Below the pieces are notes generated by a model. That model saw only the letters and a list, made by a program, of their open reading frames with translations. It did no database searches and was not told the DNA's origin. A program made the position numbers and the translations under genes. Of a DNA stretch of 64,000 nucleotides, positions 52,612 through 62,157 are shown in pieces. Position 1 is the stretch's first letter, and each line of letters opens with the position of its first letter. Source of the DNA: Lysobacter enzymogenes (GTDB taxonomy: Bacteria; Pseudomonadota; Gammaproteobacteria; Xanthomonadales; Xanthomonadaceae); contig NZ_CP067395.1 in assembly GCF_017355525.1 (NCBI RefSeq), forward strand, positions 5,716,501-5,780,500. Direction: 5' to 3'.

Positions 52612-53295
52612 ATGCGCATCCTCCTGGTAGAAGACGAATCCGCCATCGCCGACACCGTGCTCTACGCGTTGCGCGCCGAGGGCTTCCAGGCGGTGCACTG
52701 CCTGACCGGCGGCGACGCGCTGCGCGAAGCGGCGCGCGAGCCGTTCGATCTGGCCGTGCTCGACGTGGGCCTGCCCGACATCGGCGGCTTCGCGCTGTGC
52801 CGCGAGCTGCGCCGCGAGCGCGATCTGCCGGTGATCTTCCTGACCGCGCAGAACGCCGAGGCCGACCGCATCCTCGGGCTGGAGATCGGCGCCGACGACT
52901 ACGTCACCAAGCCGTTCTCGCCGCGCGAGCTGGCGACGCGGGTGCGGGTGGTGCTGCGCCGCGTCGGCGGCGTCGGCGCGGCCGGCGCCGCGGCCGCCGA
53001 GCCGGAGCGCGGCTTCGTCCACGACAACGAGGGCAAGCGCATCCGCTACCGCGGCCAGGCGCTGGACCTGACCCGCTACGAATACGGCCTGCTGGCCGCG
53101 CTGCTGCAACGCCCCGGCGCGGTGCTGTCGCGCGCGCAGCTGATGGACCGGGTCTGGGGCGACGCGCTCGACAGCGGCGACCGCACCGTCGACACCCACA
53201 TCAAGACCCTGCGCGCCAAGCTGCGCGACGTCGATTCCGACGCCGATCCGATCCGCACCCATCGCGGCCTGGGCTATTCGCTGGACAACGGCTGA
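52612..53295 (+). CDS. creB: Response regulator CreB
   Basis: 227 residues. OmpR/PhoB-type: receiver domain with phospho-acceptor D51 (DLAVLDVGLP), T80-region and VTKPFS lysine near 101, and a winged-helix DNA-binding domain (about 135-227; LTRYEYGLLAALLQRPG, then DRTVDTHIKTLRAKLR). Partner is creC, 16 bases downstream. In Enterobacteria and Aeromonas, CreB binds TTCAC-N6-TTCAC sites; a perfect one precedes creD here. The start at 52612 was chosen because the upstream 19 residues translate a repeat. Confidence 0.93.
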   Translation: MRILLVEDESAIADTVLYALRAEGFQAVHCLTGGDALREAAREPFDLAVLDVGLPDIGGFALCRELRRERDLPVIFLTAQNAEADRILGLEIGADDYVTKPFSPRELATRVRVVLRRVGGVGAAGAAAAEPERGFVHDNEGKRIRYRGQALDLTRYEYGLLAALLQRPGAVLSRAQLMDRVWGDALDSGDRTVDTHIKTLRAKLRDVDSDADPIRTHRGLGYSLDNG

Positions 53296-53311: not shown

Positions 53312-54754
53312 ATGAAAATCGGACTGCGGATCTTCCTGGGCTACTTCCTGATCGTGGCGCTGGCCGCGACCCTGCTGGCGCGGGTGTTCGTGGCCGAGGT
53401 CAAGCCGGGCGTGCGCCAGGCGATGGAAGACACCCTGGTCGACACCGCCAACGTGCTGGCCGAACTGGCCGCCGACGATTTCCTCGCCGGCCGCATCGAT
53501 CAGGGCGATTTCGCCAAGCGCGTGCGCGCGCTGGCGGCGCGCGACGTCGGCGCGGCGATCTGGGGCTTCCGCAAGCGCTCGTCGAACTACCGCGTCTACG
53601 TCACCGACGCCGCCGGCAAGGTGGTGTTCGACAGTTCCGGGCGCGACGTGGGCAAGGACTATTCGCGCTGGAACGACATCTACCTGACCTTGCGCGGGCG
53701 CTACGGCGCGCGCTCCAGCCCCGGCGAGAGCGGCGATCCGGACGACACGGTGATGCACGTGGCCGCGCCGATCCGCGACGACGCCGGCCGGATAGTGGGA
53801 GCGCTCAGCGTGGCCAAGCCGAACAGCGCGATCGCGCCGTTCATCGCCCGCAGCCAGCACGTGGTAGTGCGCTGGGGTTTCGTGCTGATGGGTGCGGCCT
53901 TGCTGGTCGGGGTCGGCGTGTCGTGGTGGCTGTCGCGCCAGATCGGCCTGCTGCGCCGCTACGCCAACGCGGTCACCGCCGGCGCGCGCGCGACTGCGCC
54001 GGACGCGGCCGGCGAGTTCGGCGAACTCGGCCGCGCGCTGGAGACGATGCGCACGCGCCTGGAAGGCAAGCAGTACGTCGAGCAGTACGTGCACACCCTG
54101 ACCCATGAGATGAAAAGCCCGCTCGCGGCGATCCGCGGCAGCGCCGAGCTGCTGGAATCGCCGCCCGGCGAAGGCGGCATGAGCGGCGCCGACCGCGCCC
54201 GCTTCGCCGGCAGCATCCGCCGCCAGGCCGAGCGGCTGGCGCAGATGATCGACAAGCTGCTGGCGCTGGCCGCGGTCGAGCATCGCCAGAGCCTGGACAA
54301 GCCCGAGCCGGCGGCGCTGGCGGCGATCGCCCAGGAAGCGGCCGAGCATTGCGCGCAGCGCCTGCGCGACAGCGGCGCCAAGCTGCTGCTCGACCTGGAG
54401 CCGAACCTGCCGCCGGTGCAGGGCGACGCGTTCCTGCTGCGTCAGGCGCTGGTCAACCTGATCGACAACGCCGCCGATTTCTCGCCCGACGGCGGCGAGA
54501 TCCTGCTGCGCCTGCGCCGCGACGGCGACCGCCAGCGCATCGAGATCGGCGACCGCGGCCCCGGCGTGCCCGATTACGCGCTGGGCCGGGTGTTCGAACG
54601 CTTCTATTCGCTGCCGCGCCCGGCCGGCGGCAGCCGCAGCAGCGGCCTGGGGCTGTGCTTCGTGGCCGAGGTGGCCGCGCTGCACGGCGGCGAGGCCGCG
54701 TTGAGCAATCGCGAAGGCGGCGGCGCGCAGGCGAGTTTGAGCGTGCCGGGCTGA
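53312..54754 (+). CDS. creC: Sensor histidine kinase CreC
   Basis: 480 residues. N-terminal LGYFLIVALAATLLARVFVAEVKPGVRQ, then the periplasmic/cytoplasmic sensor part with YVTDAAGKVVFDSSGRDVGKDYSRWNDIYLTLRGRYGARS, strongly like E. coli CreC. Second transmembrane helix about 190-210, HAMP-like linker, phospho-acceptor H265 in LTHEMKSPLAAIRG, then HATPase motifs (NLIDNAADF, GDRGPGVPDY, SGLGLCFVAEVA). It phosphorylates CreB. Stimulus in other bacteria: carbon/acetate metabolism and beta-lactam exposure. Confidence 0.93.
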   Translation: MKIGLRIFLGYFLIVALAATLLARVFVAEVKPGVRQAMEDTLVDTANVLAELAADDFLAGRIDQGDFAKRVRALAARDVGAAIWGFRKRSSNYRVYVTDAAGKVVFDSSGRDVGKDYSRWNDIYLTLRGRYGARSSPGESGDPDDTVMHVAAPIRDDAGRIVGALSVAKPNSAIAPFIARSQHVVVRWGFVLMGAALLVGVGVSWWLSRQIGLLRRYANAVTAGARATAPDAAGEFGELGRALETMRTRLEGKQYVEQYVHTLTHEMKSPLAAIRGSAELLESPPGEGGMSGADRARFAGSIRRQAERLAQMIDKLLALAAVEHRQSLDKPEPAALAAIAQEAAEHCAQRLRDSGAKLLLDLEPNLPPVQGDAFLLRQALVNLIDNAADFSPDGGEILLRLRRDGDRQRIEIGDRGPGVPDYALGRVFERFYSLPRPAGGSRSSGLGLCFVAEVAALHGGEAALSNREGGGAQASLSVPG

Positions 54755-54802
54755 GCATGCCGCGCTGAACGCGCCGCCTGCGAGGGCGGCGCGCTTCGCC
54801 GC

Positions 54803-56836
54803 TTACAGCGCCGCGTCTTCGCCTTCGCCGGGCAGCCCGCGGCGCCGGGCGCGGTTCTGCGCCATCGCGAACTTCATCCGGCTGAAGAACGAATCGCCCT
54901 CGACGAAGTCGAGCGCGTTCTGCACGTATTCGCTGTCCGGCTGCAGATGGCGCGCGGCCTCGATCCAGTACACCGCTTCGTCGTACTGGTAGCCCGGCAG
55001 CTTCTTGTCGCCGTACCACCACGCCAGCGAGACCATCGAATCCAGGTAGCCGTCGTTGGCGAATTCGAGCACATGCGGCTCGGCGCGCCGGCGCGCCGAC
55101 AGCGGCGGCCAGTCGAAGCGCAGGATCACGCCGAAGTAATTGCGGACGCGGTCGAGCAACTGCACGTCGAATTCCTGATGATCGCCTTCCAGGACTTGTT
55201 CGATCCGGGTCCGCGCGCGTTCGAGATAGTCCAGCGCCTCGCCGGCGATGGCGTCGGCCTGCGCGCCGGACACTTCGCCTTCGCGCACCGGCGCCATCGC
55301 CAGCCAGGCGACGTTGAACATCGCCACTTCGTGACGGTTGTCGGCGGCCTGGCGGTAGTACTGCAGCGCGCGTTCGGTGTCGGCGCGTTCGTCGTGGAAG
55401 TAGGCGCCGCAGCTGAACTGCGCGGACGCGTCGCCGAGCGCCGCGGCCTTGAGCCACATCGGCAGCAGCGCGTCCGCGCCCAGCGTTTCGCCGAGCGGCG
55501 CCAGCGCATTGAACGGCGAGTCGGGCACGATGCTGCGGTCGGCGGTCTTCGCCGCGGCGAGTTCGAACCAGCCGTCGGCGACCTGCGCGTCGCGCTCGAT
55601 CCCGGCCCAGCCGTTGAGGCTCAACAGGCCGTACAGCGCCGCGCCGTGCGCGCTGACCAAGCGGTTCACCTCGGCGATCTTGCCGAGCCACGGCCCGCGC
55701 TCGTCGCTGGCGCACCACGTCGACACCGCGCGCACCAGGGCCCATTGTTCGTAGTGATTGTGCGGGGCGCTGTGGGCGTAATGGGCGCAGGCGGCTTCGA
55801 TCCGGTCGTTGCGCACTTCCAGGTAAGCCAGATACTTGTGCACGCGGCCGCGCAGGTTCTCCGCCAGCGGCCGCTCCAGCAACTGCTGGCCCAGGCGCAG
55901 GTGATGGCGCAGCACGCGCGGGTCTTCGAGCATGTCGCTGTCGTCGACTTCCAGCTCGTCGAACCAGGCGAAGAAGCGCAGCGTGTTGCGTTCGTGTTCG
56001 TCGAAACGTTCGCACAGCGGCGAGTCGGCGAAGGCGAGCATTTCCTCCCAGCTGCCGCCCCAGCGCGGCATGCGCAACGACACGTAGGCGGCGGCCGCGT
56101 CCAGCGCGTGCGGGTCCAGCGCGAAAGCGACGCGCAGCCAGTATTGCAGCGCCGCGTCGTCCTGGTCGGACTGTTCGCGCCGCCACGCCAGCGGCTCGGC
56201 GGTCAGCGGCGGCGGCAGGTGTTGCGGCAGCGCGCGCAGATACTCGGCCAGCTCGGCGGCCGCGCCGGACGGCGCCAGCATCGCTTCGATCTCGGCCGAT
56301 TCGCCGTGGCCCGGCAGCGCGGTGGGCCGTTCGCCCTTGAGCAGCCAGCGCCGCCACCATTTGGGTTCGCCGAACGCGGCCTCGCTGTAGAGCACGCTGG
56401 TGATCGCCGGCCACTCGCCGTGGCCGCCGTCGAGCATGCGGATCACCGCGCACAGCATCGCGTCCTGGGCGGTGCGCGCGCAGGCGCGCATCGCCGGCGT
56501 GACCCGGTCGGCGGTGGTGGTGCTGCGGTACTCGCCGAACCACGCGGCCCAGTAGGCGACTTCGAGCATCGCCGGAAAGCGGCTGTCGGGCCGTTGCGCG
56601 CGCCATTGCCGCAGTTGCGCGAGCGCGTCGCGGCCGTGCGCGAGGGCGTGGCCGAAGAAATCGCCGTAGACCTCGATGTAGTCCAGCGCGGGCTGCGGTT
56701 CGCTCTGCGCATCGCGCACCGCTTGCAGCGCGCGCTCGAGCTCGTCCCAGCGTTGCTGCGGCAGCCACGCGGCGTAGTCGACGCGGCCTTCCGCGGCGAT
56801 GGCCTCGGCGACGCTGACGGCTTTGAGTGGGGACAT
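54803..56836 (-). CDS. Large TPR/Sel1-like protein inserted between creC and creD
   Basis: 677 residues, cytosolic (no signal or membrane helix). The N-terminal ~280 residues (LPQQRWDELERALQAVRDA...) resemble a DUF4034-type helical domain; the C-terminal half has Sel1/TPR-like units (LPMWLKAAALGDASAQFSCGAYF, ALQYYRQAADNRHEVAMFNVAW, AVYWIEAARHL). Probably a protein-interaction scaffold. It runs opposite to creC/creD, and its start is 36 bases downstream of the PcfJ-like gene, so the two are an operon. Function unknown. Confidence 0.82.
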   Translation of the reverse strand: MSPLKAVSVAEAIAAEGRVDYAAWLPQQRWDELERALQAVRDAQSEPQPALDYIEVYGDFFGHALAHGRDALAQLRQWRAQRPDSRFPAMLEVAYWAAWFGEYRSTTTADRVTPAMRACARTAQDAMLCAVIRMLDGGHGEWPAITSVLYSEAAFGEPKWWRRWLLKGERPTALPGHGESAEIEAMLAPSGAAAELAEYLRALPQHLPPPLTAEPLAWRREQSDQDDAALQYWLRVAFALDPHALDAAAAYVSLRMPRWGGSWEEMLAFADSPLCERFDEHERNTLRFFAWFDELEVDDSDMLEDPRVLRHHLRLGQQLLERPLAENLRGRVHKYLAYLEVRNDRIEAACAHYAHSAPHNHYEQWALVRAVSTWCASDERGPWLGKIAEVNRLVSAHGAALYGLLSLNGWAGIERDAQVADGWFELAAAKTADRSIVPDSPFNALAPLGETLGADALLPMWLKAAALGDASAQFSCGAYFHDERADTERALQYYRQAADNRHEVAMFNVAWLAMAPVREGEVSGAQADAIAGEALDYLERARTRIEQVLEGDHQEFDVQLLDRVRNYFGVILRFDWPPLSARRRAEPHVLEFANDGYLDSMVSLAWWYGDKKLPGYQYDEAVYWIEAARHLQPDSEYVQNALDFVEGDSFFSRMKFAMAQNRARRRGLPGEGEDAAL

Positions 56837-56872
56837 GGACGATCCTTGTGCGTGGGGATTGGGGGAAGGGAC

Positions 56873-58774
56873 TTAGACAGCGACGGTCGAACCCGGTGGG
56901 TCCGACCCGGTCGCGATCGCCTCGCTCAGGTCGAACCCGGACCAGCTCAGCCGCGTCCACGGGCAATCGTACTGGTCCAGATAATCGGCGATCGCCACTT
57001 CGGTGGCGCGGGCGTTGCGCGCCTCGTGGCTGCTCCAGCGCAGCCAGGTGGCATGGCCGCGGCCGGCGGCGGCGCCGAACGCGCGCCAATCGGCGAAGCC
57101 GTCCTGCACGCGCTGGGCGTTGAGCAGCAGCAGCGGCCAGCCGCGCGCATCGTCGATCAGGCCCCAGGCCGCGAGCAGGCGCAGCAGGTAGCCCTGGCGC
57201 ATGGCGTGCCAGGCCAGCAGATCGCGCACGGGATCCGCGCCGGGTGCGGCCGGGTCCGGCGCGGCGGCCGTTTCCAGCAAATTCGGGTGAGAGAAGCAGG
57301 GCACGCGGAAGAACTCGGCGCAAAAGTTCCGCACCGCCGCCTCGGCGCCGTCGCGCGCGAAGCCCAGTTCGGATTCGACCTGGGTGCGGATGCGTTGCGG
57401 GATTCCCGCCGGCGCGGCCAGCCGGGTGTCGTGGCCGACCAGGCCGATGCGGAACAGCAGCGGATCGGACACCGCCAGCGCCCAGCGCCGGTGCGTCGGC
57501 GCCGCCTGCGCCGGCCCGCCCTTGCCGAGCAGCCGCGCCAGCCAACCGCCGCCGCGCGGCGCGTCCGCGGGTGCGAACGAGGCGGCGAGCCATTGCGGGA
57601 ACACCTGTTTCAGCGCGGTTTCGCACAGCTCGCTCTGCGCCGCGGCGTAGGCCGCCTGCTCGCCGTCGTCGCCGGCCGCCTCGGCGCGCCGCATCGCCAG
57701 CGCAGCGGCGACGACGGGCCCGTGCGGTACGGCGACCTGCTCGACGACGGCCGCGCGAGCGCCCAGTCCCAGCCATTGTTCGAGCGGGCCCGGAGCCGGA
57801 TGGTGGCCGAGCAGATGCGGATAGGCGGCCAGCAGCGCGCGCTGGCGCGCGACGTCGTCGAGTTCGCCGAACGCGACATAGCCGGCTGCGCCGTCGCCGC
57901 CGGCGGCGACGAGGCCCAGCAGCAGCAAGTCGCCGCAGCCGCCGTCGTGCGGGCGCAATTGTTCGAGCAGGGCCCGCACGTCGGGCAGGTACTTGGCCGC
58001 GGGCACGGTGTTCTGCTTGCCCTTGATCTGCTCCAGGCTCCACTCGCCGAGTTCCAGCGCCAGACTGACGGTGACGTGCGGGCGGTTGTGTTCGTCGCGC
58101 AGGCTGAACAAGCGGATCCGGCCCTGTTCGCAATTGCGCGCGTAATGCTCGCCGTAGCCGCCTTCGAGCCGCTCGCGCTGGGCGAACTGGCCCAGGCAGT
58201 GCTGCATGTGGAACGACTCGTAGGCCAGTTCCGCGCGCAGGGTATGGCCGCTGGCGCGCAACTCGACGAAGCGGCCGTTCGGCGTCGCCGCGATGTCGGC
58301 CAGCGCATGCGGCTGGCTCGGCCACCAGCCGCGCCGGCTGCGCCGCTGCATGCGTTCGTGGTCGCGCCGCCACGCGGCGTCGGCGGCGGCGAAGGCGATG
58401 CGGTGGAATTTGCCGGCCAGGCGCGTGTCCAGGCGCGCGGCAAAGAATTCGACCATGCGCAGTTCGTGTTCGCGCAGCAGATGGTGCTCGGGGTCGATGT
58501 AGAGCATGTCCGCGTCGCCCTGCGCCAGCTTGCGCAGGAACCATGGCGCCGGCGCCTGCGCGCTCATGCACACGCGCCAGTTGTCCTCGCTGCGCACCGG
58601 CAGCACTTGGGCGAAGCGGTTGACGACCCAGCGGAAGAAATGGCTGCGCAGCCAACGCGCGATGTCGGCGTGATCGCGGCGCTGCTGGCTGCGGCGCACG
58701 ATCGCGGCGCGGATCGCGTCGGCGTTGATGACGTCGCGCGCGGTCGGCGGCGATGAGAGGGCGGGAGAGTCCAT
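56873..58774 (-). CDS. PcfJ-like protein upstream of the TPR/Sel1 gene
   Basis: 633 residues. A central block matches PcfJ-like proteins: SFHMQHCLGQF near 187-197, YGEHYARNCEQGRIRLFSLRD, then HVTVSLALELGEWSLEQIKGKQN and PAAKYLPDV. The PcfJ family has an H-x-x-x-C and a Q-x-K-G-K-x-N motif of uncertain biochemistry. The C-terminal half (ALKQVFPQWLAAS, DPVRDLLAWHAMRQGYLLRLLAAW) is unrecognised. Start at 58774 (ATG preceded by AGGA). Transcribed toward the TPR gene with 36 bases between; divergent from creD. Not a plasmid-conjugation context. Confidence 0.82.
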   Translation of the reverse strand: MDSPALSSPPTARDVINADAIRAAIVRRSQQRRDHADIARWLRSHFFRWVVNRFAQVLPVRSEDNWRVCMSAQAPAPWFLRKLAQGDADMLYIDPEHHLLREHELRMVEFFAARLDTRLAGKFHRIAFAAADAAWRRDHERMQRRSRRGWWPSQPHALADIAATPNGRFVELRASGHTLRAELAYESFHMQHCLGQFAQRERLEGGYGEHYARNCEQGRIRLFSLRDEHNRPHVTVSLALELGEWSLEQIKGKQNTVPAAKYLPDVRALLEQLRPHDGGCGDLLLLGLVAAGGDGAAGYVAFGELDDVARQRALLAAYPHLLGHHPAPGPLEQWLGLGARAAVVEQVAVPHGPVVAAALAMRRAEAAGDDGEQAAYAAAQSELCETALKQVFPQWLAASFAPADAPRGGGWLARLLGKGGPAQAAPTHRRWALAVSDPLLFRIGLVGHDTRLAAPAGIPQRIRTQVESELGFARDGAEAAVRNFCAEFFRVPCFSHPNLLETAAAPDPAAPGADPVRDLLAWHAMRQGYLLRLLAAWGLIDDARGWPLLLLNAQRVQDGFADWRAFGAAAGRGHATWLRWSSHEARNARATEVAIADYLDQYDCPWTRLSWSGFDLSEAIATGSDPPGSTVAV

Positions 58775-58895
58775 TCCTGCGGCGTTTCCGGGGGCGGGGT
58801 CCTGACGATGGCGGGGCGGCCGCGCCCAGTATCCTCGCTGCGCGCCCGCAGCCCAAGCGCCCGGCCCGGCGCCGCGGATCGGCCGCGGCGCGCGC

Positions 58896-58911
58896 TTCAC
58901 CGACGCTTCAC
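58896..58911 (+). promoter_or_regulatory. CreB binding site (cre/blr tag)
   Basis: TTCAC at 58896-58900 and again at 58907-58911, with six bases (CGACGC) between, is a perfect TTCAC-N6-TTCAC tag, which is the known CreB/BlrA operator in E. coli and Aeromonas. It lies 93 bases upstream of the creD start on the same strand and 121 bases upstream of the PcfJ-like start on the other. I found no second perfect tag in the window by eye. Confidence 0.8.
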
Positions 58912-59003
58912 CGTCGCCGCACCGCCTCGCCATCGCGCCTCCGCACAAGCCGCCCAAGCTTGCCGCCAAGGTCGCGGACAACGTCGCGCACAGGGAGAAC
59001 GAC

Positions 59004-60434
59004 ATGCGGGTCTGGTTGAAGATGTTGATGGTGCTGGGGCTGACCCTGGCGATTCTGGTGCCGCTGCTGATGATCGGCGGGGTCATCGACGAGCGTCAGA
59101 CCTACCGCGCCCAGGCGGTGGCGACGGTCGCGCGCAGCTACGCCGGCGCGCAGGCGTTCTCCGGCCCGGCGCTGATCGTGCCGTACGAGGACACCTGGAT
59201 CAGCGAAGAAAAGGACGACAAGGGCGTGGTCAAGCGCATCGCCCATCGCGAGCAGGGCCGCTGGACCTACTTCCCGGCCAAGCTCGAAGTCTCCGGCGAG
59301 ATCGTGCCGCGCGAACGCACGCTCGGCTTGTACAAGGTGCTGGTGTACGAATGGCAGGGCAAGGCCCAGGCCAGCTTCAACGCCAACATCCCGGCCAACC
59401 CGGTCGCCGCGCCCGGCACCACGGTCAACGGCATCGCCCGCAGCATCGGCAAGCCGTGGCTGAGCTACGCCTTCGCCGACGTGCGCGGCCTGCGCGATCC
59501 CAAGCTGCGTCTGGACGGCGTCGAGGCGGCGATCGAAGACGGCCAGGGCGCGCGCGACGGCGGCGGCATCCACGCCCGTCTGGCCGCGCCGGCGCCGGCG
59601 ACTCAGCTGAAGGCGCAGACCGAACTGGAGTTCACCCTCGGCGGCACCGAATCGCTGGCGCTGGTGCCGCTGGGCAAGGACAACCGCTTCTCGCTGCGTT
59701 CCAAGTGGCCGCACCCGAACTACGGCGGCAGCTTTCCGCCGAGCTCGGACAGCATCGGCGCCGACGGCTTCCGCGCCGACTGGCGGGTGTCGTCGGTCGC
59801 CACCAACGCCCAGCGTCAGTACACCGCCGGCGCGGTGCTGCCGTCGGTCGGCCTGACCGAAAGCTATGAGGCCGCCGCGGGGCCGGAAGGCGCGATCGGC
59901 AGCGAGATCAACGCGGTCCAGATCACCCTCAAGGACCCGGTCAACGTCTACTCGCAGGCCGAACGCGCGACCAAGTACGGCCTGCTGTTCGTGTTGCTGA
60001 CCTTCGTCGGCTTCTTCATGTTCGAACTGATCAAGCAACTGCGCATCCACCCGATCCAGTACGGCCTGGTCGGCCTGGCCCTGGCGATCTTCTTCCTGCT
60101 GCTGGTGAGCCTGAGCGAGCACATCGACTTCGGCGTGTCGTACCTGATCGCCAGCGTCGCCTGCATCGGTTTGCTGGTGTTCTATCTGAGCGCGGTGTTG
60201 CGCAGCCTGGTCCGCGCGCTCGGCTTCGGCGCGATGCTGGTGACGCTGTACGGCGCGCTGTACGGCCTGCTGATCTCCGAGGACAACGCCCTGGTGCTCG
60301 GCGCCGGCCTGCTGTTCCTGATCCTGGCCGCGATCATGGTCGTCACCCGCAAGGTCGACTGGTACCAGCTCGGCGCCAGCGCGCCCGGCAAGCGCGCCGA
60401 GCCGTCGCCGCCGCCGCTGCCGGACGCGCAGTGA
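59004..60434 (+). CDS. creD: Inner membrane protein CreD
   Basis: 476 residues. N-terminal transmembrane helix (about 7-27), an extracytoplasmic domain (30-300; YAGAQAFSGPALIVPY, WTYFPAKLEVSGEI, DSIGADGFRADWRVS) and five to six C-terminal helices from ~325 (LLFVLLTFVGFFMFELIK, YGLVGLALAIFFLLLVS). Typical CreD. It is the main regulon member of CreBC and contributes to envelope integrity or colicin E2 tolerance. Preceded by a perfect CreB tag. The pair PcfJ-like/TPR separates it from creBC. Own terminator. Confidence 0.95.
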   Translation: MRVWLKMLMVLGLTLAILVPLLMIGGVIDERQTYRAQAVATVARSYAGAQAFSGPALIVPYEDTWISEEKDDKGVVKRIAHREQGRWTYFPAKLEVSGEIVPRERTLGLYKVLVYEWQGKAQASFNANIPANPVAAPGTTVNGIARSIGKPWLSYAFADVRGLRDPKLRLDGVEAAIEDGQGARDGGGIHARLAAPAPATQLKAQTELEFTLGGTESLALVPLGKDNRFSLRSKWPHPNYGGSFPPSSDSIGADGFRADWRVSSVATNAQRQYTAGAVLPSVGLTESYEAAAGPEGAIGSEINAVQITLKDPVNVYSQAERATKYGLLFVLLTFVGFFMFELIKQLRIHPIQYGLVGLALAIFFLLLVSLSEHIDFGVSYLIASVACIGLLVFYLSAVLRSLVRALGFGAMLVTLYGALYGLLISEDNALVLGAGLLFLILAAIMVVTRKVDWYQLGASAPGKRAEPSPPPLPDAQ

Positions 60435-62071: not shown

Positions 62072-62138
62072 ACGGTCGCGGCTCGCGCCGCTCCTACAGG
62101 TAGCCCATGTAGGAGCGGCGCGAGCCGCGACCGCGACA
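62072..62138. repeat. REP-like inverted pair
   Basis: Two inverted copies of the TGTAGGAGCGGCGCGAGCC element with a ~9-base spacer, the same compact arrangement as at 1-63. Sits between the convergent nitrilase-family and PAP2 genes. Confidence 0.85.
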
Positions 62139-62157
62139 CTTCAACTGCCGCGCAACC

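Follow-up and report, generated by a model that had tools for sequence, protein, structure and literature searches.

A predicted CreB operator of creD conserved in Lysobacter and its relatives, and the probable cargo genes beside it

The cre locus and its gene content

The window, by which we mean the whole stretch of 64,000 nucleotides analysed here, lies within a 5.95-Mb contig of the source genome and carries creB, creC and creD as one cluster, all three scoring above the cut-offs of the NCBIfam equivalog models (Table 1). The interval between creC and creD is about 4.2 kb long and contains a pair of genes, PcfJ-like and DUF4034. Elsewhere in the window, a long inverted repeat (tcgcggctcgcgccgctcctac ... 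gtaggagcggcgcgagccgcga) occupies positions 62075-62140, downstream of a carbon-nitrogen hydrolase gene.

Table 1. Genes and predicted regulatory elements of the cre locus, in window coordinates.
Feature	Position	Strand	Basis and remarks
creB, OmpR/PhoB-type response regulator	52612..53295	+	NF008296 CreB equivalog 339 bits, cut-off 273; ORF
creC, sensor histidine kinase	53312..54754	+	NF008312 CreC equivalog 630 bits, cut-off 356; ORF
DUF4034 protein with weak Sel1/TPR-like repeats, probable cargo	54803..56836	-	PF13226 133.5 bits; Sel1/TPR below cut-off
PcfJ-like domain fused to DUF1266, probable cargo, divergent from creD	56873..58774	-	PF06889 32.1 bits; PF14284 14.4 bits, below cut-off
Possible -10 (GATACT) of the PcfJ-like gene	58828..58833	-	Putative; in the window, L195 and L196
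cre/blr tag, predicted CreB operator of creD, units 1 and 2 of an 11-bp array	58896..58911	+	Conservation
Third 11-bp unit, degenerate (nnCAC)	58918..58928	+	Within the genus, main Lysobacter clade only
Fourth unit GCCATCGCGCC, nnCATC element	58929..58939	+	Tag+35 here, tag+24 in five other genomes of the genus
Weak -10-like CAAGCT, putative creD promoter	58955..58960	+	Tag+59; 2-3 of 6 consensus letters
creD, inner membrane protein	59004..60434	+	PF06123 439.7 bits; NF008712 448 bits, cut-off 275

The earlier note on this DNA had called the two intervening genes PcfJ-like and TPR. For the first, a Citrobacter relative scores above the Pfam cut-off (L121, PF14284 28.4 bits against 25) and the window protein falls below it, as does a further relative (L136, 16.1 bits); the C-terminus of the window protein is DUF1266 (cut-off 27). 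The second protein is a DUF4034 protein (cut-off 21.3), and its Sel1/TPR matches are below cut-off. The closest PcfJ-like relatives in named genomes are from L. enzymogenes ATCC 29487 (67%) and Lysobacter sp. ISL-50 (61%), and M, H, C, G, Y, R and QxKGKQN positions are invariant across 27 aligned PcfJ-like proteins. In two structure predictions the PcfJ-like domain (window residues ~156-300; L121:9968-11164) is modelled with a GNAT-like arrangement. Foldseek returned nothing at E 0.001, and the two solved structures matched by sequence, at E 0.41, were left unused. PADLOC had no match for the pair, and PHROGs gave one weak match, to the DUF4034 protein. Among the literature titles listed, none concerned the function of DUF4034, DUF1266 or PcfJ-like proteins. 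Of 29 loci from named genomes, 15, the two from Lysobacter among them, have a homologue of the DUF4034 protein adjoining the PcfJ gene. The PcfJ/DUF1266/DUF4034 module of Citrobacter and its relatives, for which the Pfam matches are those of L121, has the gene order of the window. PcfJ and DUF1266 form one protein in Lysobacter, one ORF in Rhizobium (L118) and two genes in Citrobacter, and no creD was found with the Citrobacter-type module, unlike the Lysobacter pair.

The tag and its conservation before creD

The spacer between creD and the PcfJ-like gene contains TTCACCGACGCTTCAC, a perfect TTCAC-N6-TTCAC on the plus strand, as the earlier note had stated in describing a perfect CreB tag at this place. 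The tag is separated from the creD ATG (59004) by 92 bases and from that of the divergent gene (58774) by 121. From composition, 7.7e-5 perfect tags would be expected in the 229-bp spacer. With at most one mismatch allowed, two matches occur in the window versus 1.2 expected. Genome-wide there are two perfect copies, one copy of the reversed control pattern and about 2.0 copies expected from composition; by count alone a perfect copy is unremarkable, and it is position and conservation that set this tag above chance. As genome-wide matches with up to one mismatch (67) are not clearly above the control (63), no wider CreB regulon is proposed. Across 20 genomes of the genus we counted 39 perfect tags, 20 at creD and 19 elsewhere, versus 36 occurrences of the reversed pattern. 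The 19 tags away from creD are not in excess of this control, and since all 39 together show no clear excess either, the case for the tag rests on its position and not on number.

The only other perfect tag of this genome (L001:1501-1516; G000:C1:3257476-3257491) lies 33 bases before a gene that we take to encode a TPR protein, followed by an ORF that presumably resembles a type III secretion SctS/FliQ protein. It was rejected as a regulon member because the repeat is broken in four close homologues in other genomes. Another perfect tag, TTCACGCTGTTTTCAC, is common to three of the 20 genomes (position 1501 of L219 and L231, from G200 and G207, and G208:C1:5835196) and absent from the genome of the window; in L219 and L231 an ATG follows it after 37 bases, and it is possibly a lineage-specific CreB site.

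For the comparison at creD, 100 loci were used, each oriented with creD forward: 89 from the 151 creD-matching genomes of a family sample (n = 198) and 11 further ones from the genus. The tag score of a locus is that of the best repeat, out of 10 letters, starting 160 to 41 bases before creD. Two of the creD matches, those of L160 (G204) and L163 (G062), contain one TGA. Among creD loci of the family that are linked to creBC, 83 of 88 score at least 9/10 (43 perfect, 40 with one mismatch), and the remaining five (L053, L074, L091, L096, L213) score only 7-8. TTCAC-N6-TTCAA accounts for 24 of the 40 one-mismatch tags. None of the 12 creD loci without creBC in the compared stretch reaches 9/10 (Fisher 5.9e-12, uncorrected for relatedness, so that related genomes enter as non-independent counts), and among 2000 windows drawn at random from these loci, matched in size and strand, only one does so. 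Because the tag is present with creBC and absent without it, it tracks the combination of creBC and creD. Within the genus a perfect tag lies 81-108 bases before creD in 20 of 20 genomes (the window and 19 loci).

Ten of the 12 loci without creBC come from genomes without a CreC match at E 1e-60 among the best candidates scored, at most seven per genome; in the other two, CreC is unlinked (G128) or about 10 kb away (G040). In G040, creD lies at C2:897533-898813 and CreC at C2:908549-909997, and the best tag before creD scores 8/10; here, too, an insertion may have separated creC from creD, in this case with a decayed tag.

Anatomy of the operator

Read from the tag in 11-base units, the window has TTCACCGACGC TTCACCGTCGC CGCACCGCCTC GCCATCGCGCC. 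At perfect-tag loci outside the main Lysobacter clade, the five such genomes of the genus included, 27 of 29 have CATC (25) or CGTC (2) at tag+24, which is unit 3. In the main clade (15 genomes, the window among them) CATC stands at tag+35, in unit 4, and CAC is retained in the extra unit in 15/15; CATC at tag+35 is also found at one unrelated locus, L206. The weak -10-like element of creD is at tag+59 in the 15 main-clade genomes (set by eye for the window and L196, where the computed register is +60) and at tag+48 in the five others, a shift by the same 11 bp, or one helical turn. Since main-clade genomes that lack the PcfJ-like/DUF4034 pair have the extra unit as well, the insertion did not produce it. 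A scan of 58700-59100 on both strands with the E. coli sigma-70 consensus found no promoter.

The gap between creC and the tag

In nine of the 20 genomes the stretch between creC and the tag is a short gap of 29-411 bp, and in 11 it holds other DNA: the PcfJ-like/DUF4034 pair in five (the window, L040, L195, L196, L199), a minus-strand cluster in three (L036, L202 and L203, alike by their ORFs, with an EAL gene by Pfam in L203), a plus-strand alpha/beta hydrolase in two (L197 by Pfam, L198 alike by ORF) and an uncertain ORF in one (L200), Pfam having been run on the gap cargo of L203, L197 and L200 only. These 11 gaps (54755-58895 in the window) thus hold at least three, perhaps four, types of cargo, and the gap looks like a recurrent insertion slot in Lysobacter. 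The hydrolase gene ends just before the tag, with its 3' end 15 (L197) and 3 (L198) bases away, which rules out the tag as a promoter element of that gene. In a tree of CreB plus CreC, the five genomes with the pair and the two with the hydrolase form one clade (support 96/96), which would fit either one arrival and one replacement or two arrivals.

Relation of the tag to the PcfJ-like/DUF4034 pair

All of the 20 genomes have creD and five have the PcfJ-like gene, so that the tag is kept without the pair in 15. Beyond the genus, a search for relatives in named genomes gave the 29 loci mentioned above, of which the two from Lysobacter have creD and an adjoining tag. The 27 others gave no creD hit in the stretch searched. 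In the 26 of these that could be scored (the 27th, L129, has 36 bases of upstream sequence and was left out), 400 bases upstream on both strands contain no tag upstream of the gene. The upstream regions reach at most 8/10 in 24 cases, and the related Citrobacter L121 and Buttiauxella L122 share the same 9/10 match, which lies inside the coding start; 19 of 1040 random 400-bp windows reach 9/10. Perfect tags occur 2.3 and 3.9 kb away in two of the PcfJ-relative loci. A tag upstream of the pair and independent of creD was thus found in none of the testable loci outside Lysobacter (0/26), and the suggestion of the earlier note that the pair shares the tag is not supported by these counts.

In the five genomes with the pair, ungapped identity counted outwards from the tag is 72% on the creD side and 37% on the pair side, with a composition baseline of 31%, indels lowering the pair-side figure. 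In a gapped alignment, a GATACT patch is common to three of the five. This possible -10 of the pair lies 62 (window), 64 (L195) and 47 (L196) nt from the tag, and in the remaining two genomes the best candidate lies at 37 nt, so that the five distances (62, 64, 47, 37, 37 nt) are out of phase. The tag is 121, 123, 133, 143 and 143 nt from the ATG of the pair; these steps of about 10 nt were not accepted as phasing because they come from three lineages only.

Discussion

Response regulator CreB is phosphorylated by CreC in this system. The reading that we prefer, with a probability of roughly 0.8, is that the tag is the ancestral CreB operator of creD and that the pair is an independent neighbor placed between creC and this operator. 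CreB would bind the direct repeat as a head-to-tail pair and set creD transcription from a promoter some 50-60 bp downstream, the position of which is suggested by conservation. In the main clade the distance between operator and promoter appears longer by exactly one 11-bp unit that is itself like a degenerate half-site, and because the spacing grew by exactly this unit, the operator would have kept its face of the helix. In one subclade the pair would have entered the stretch between creC and the operator, on one or two occasions and leaving the operator intact, and would be expressed from a promoter of its own. The conservation in 83/88 creBC-linked loci and 20/20 genomes of the genus strongly supports the tag as a real and functional operator of creD, as predicted, in agreement with the earlier proposal that creD is a CreB target. 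This much is an ordinary case, a known operator type at a known target, and the one-turn expansion and the variable slot are modest new details.

That the tag match is a chance occurrence might be argued from the copy number: a genome of this size should hold about two, and two are found. This reading deserves practically no weight; it is ruled out by the conservation of the tag before creD, at 81-108 bases in every genome of the genus and in 83/88 family loci versus 1/2000 controls. A further reading, which we consider unlikely, is that CreB at the one tag regulates both creD and a divergent PcfJ-DUF1266/DUF4034 operon. It has in its favor that the tag is within 121-143 nt of the start of the pair in all five genomes that have it, and that the pair is inside the cre locus in each of them (5/5). 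Also, the absence of the tag elsewhere is not full proof, since Salmonella CreB can bind a promoter lacking the typical tag, according to the available part of PMC7873081. Against it stand the 26/26 testable loci outside Lysobacter without a tag upstream of the gene, the persistence of the tag without the pair in 15/20 genomes, the near-baseline identity on the pair side, the possible -10 elements out of phase with the tag and the direct repeat itself, which points towards creD. Given the counts of tag and neighbor, the one-sided conservation, the unphased -10 candidates and the lack of a tag excess, the pair is best read as cargo beside the creD operator, most likely changeable and expressed independently of the tag, by a promoter of its own. 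Nothing was found in the sequences compared that ties the pair to the CreB regulator, and such a tie would be unsupported.

The sign of the regulation is a separate matter. Lysobacter and S. maltophilia are related bacteria, a point in favor of a reading under which the tag is real and CreB represses creD in Lysobacter as reported for S. maltophilia, with the extra unit tuning repression; we regard this as a tentative alternative, less probable than not. In E. coli and other bacteria, creD rises when CreB is activated (available parts of PMC4689548 and PMC3962086), and creD is induced by colicin M (PMC3599342, in part). In S. maltophilia, the available text of PMC4689548 reports that creD rises on deletion of creBC, meaning that CreBC lowers creD, that creD responds neither to beta-lactams nor to phosphomimic CreB, and that creD is transcribed from a promoter of its own, where a homologue of the tag sits at about -80 to -65. 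The family may thus depart from the classical activation model, and exposure to beta-lactams may be a poor test in Lysobacter. Repression is also favored by the 24/40 one-mismatch family tags of the type TTCAC-N6-TTCAA, which the same source names. It is weakened by the Lysobacter tags being perfect in both halves, like the E. coli/Aeromonas consensus quoted there, and by the fact that no binding test was found in the available part of that source (PMC4689548).

Under the preferred reading, in which the pair is a neighbor of the creD operator, a likely CreB operator of creD is fixed across a bacterial family, and the comparison offers a way to separate the true target of an operator from a neighbor that merely adjoins it. 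A cargo slot would explain why an uncharacterised pair is found inside a cell-envelope regulatory locus. In the main clade the slot would lie beside an expanded, four-unit operator, and divergent cargo such as this module could have been captured by it; we think this improbable. If it were true, envelope-stress signalling through CreBC would switch lineage-specific cargo, possibly a GNAT-like modifying enzyme. Should the additional 11-bp unit prove functional, Lysobacter would provide a natural test of what one helical turn of extra operator spacing does.

Comparison with known cre systems

No title on cre in Lysobacter was among the literature matches listed, and in the available part of PMC5402928 a search for the tag found no passage on it. 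E. coli creABCD, Aeromonas blrABD and P. aeruginosa creBCD also have TTCAC-N6-TTCAC before creD, with creBC in the cluster, according to the available part of PMC4689548. The same source describes a tag homologue before creD for S. maltophilia creBCD, as in Lysobacter, but there the tag is TTCAC-N6-TTCAA and the creC-creD gap is 81 bp, whereas the Lysobacter tag is perfect (PMC4689548, in part). Unlike in E. coli, Aeromonas and P. aeruginosa, 1.7-6.1 kb of DNA lie between creC and the tag in 11 of the 20 Lysobacter genomes, and in the main clade one more 11-bp unit follows the tag before the predicted promoter is reached.
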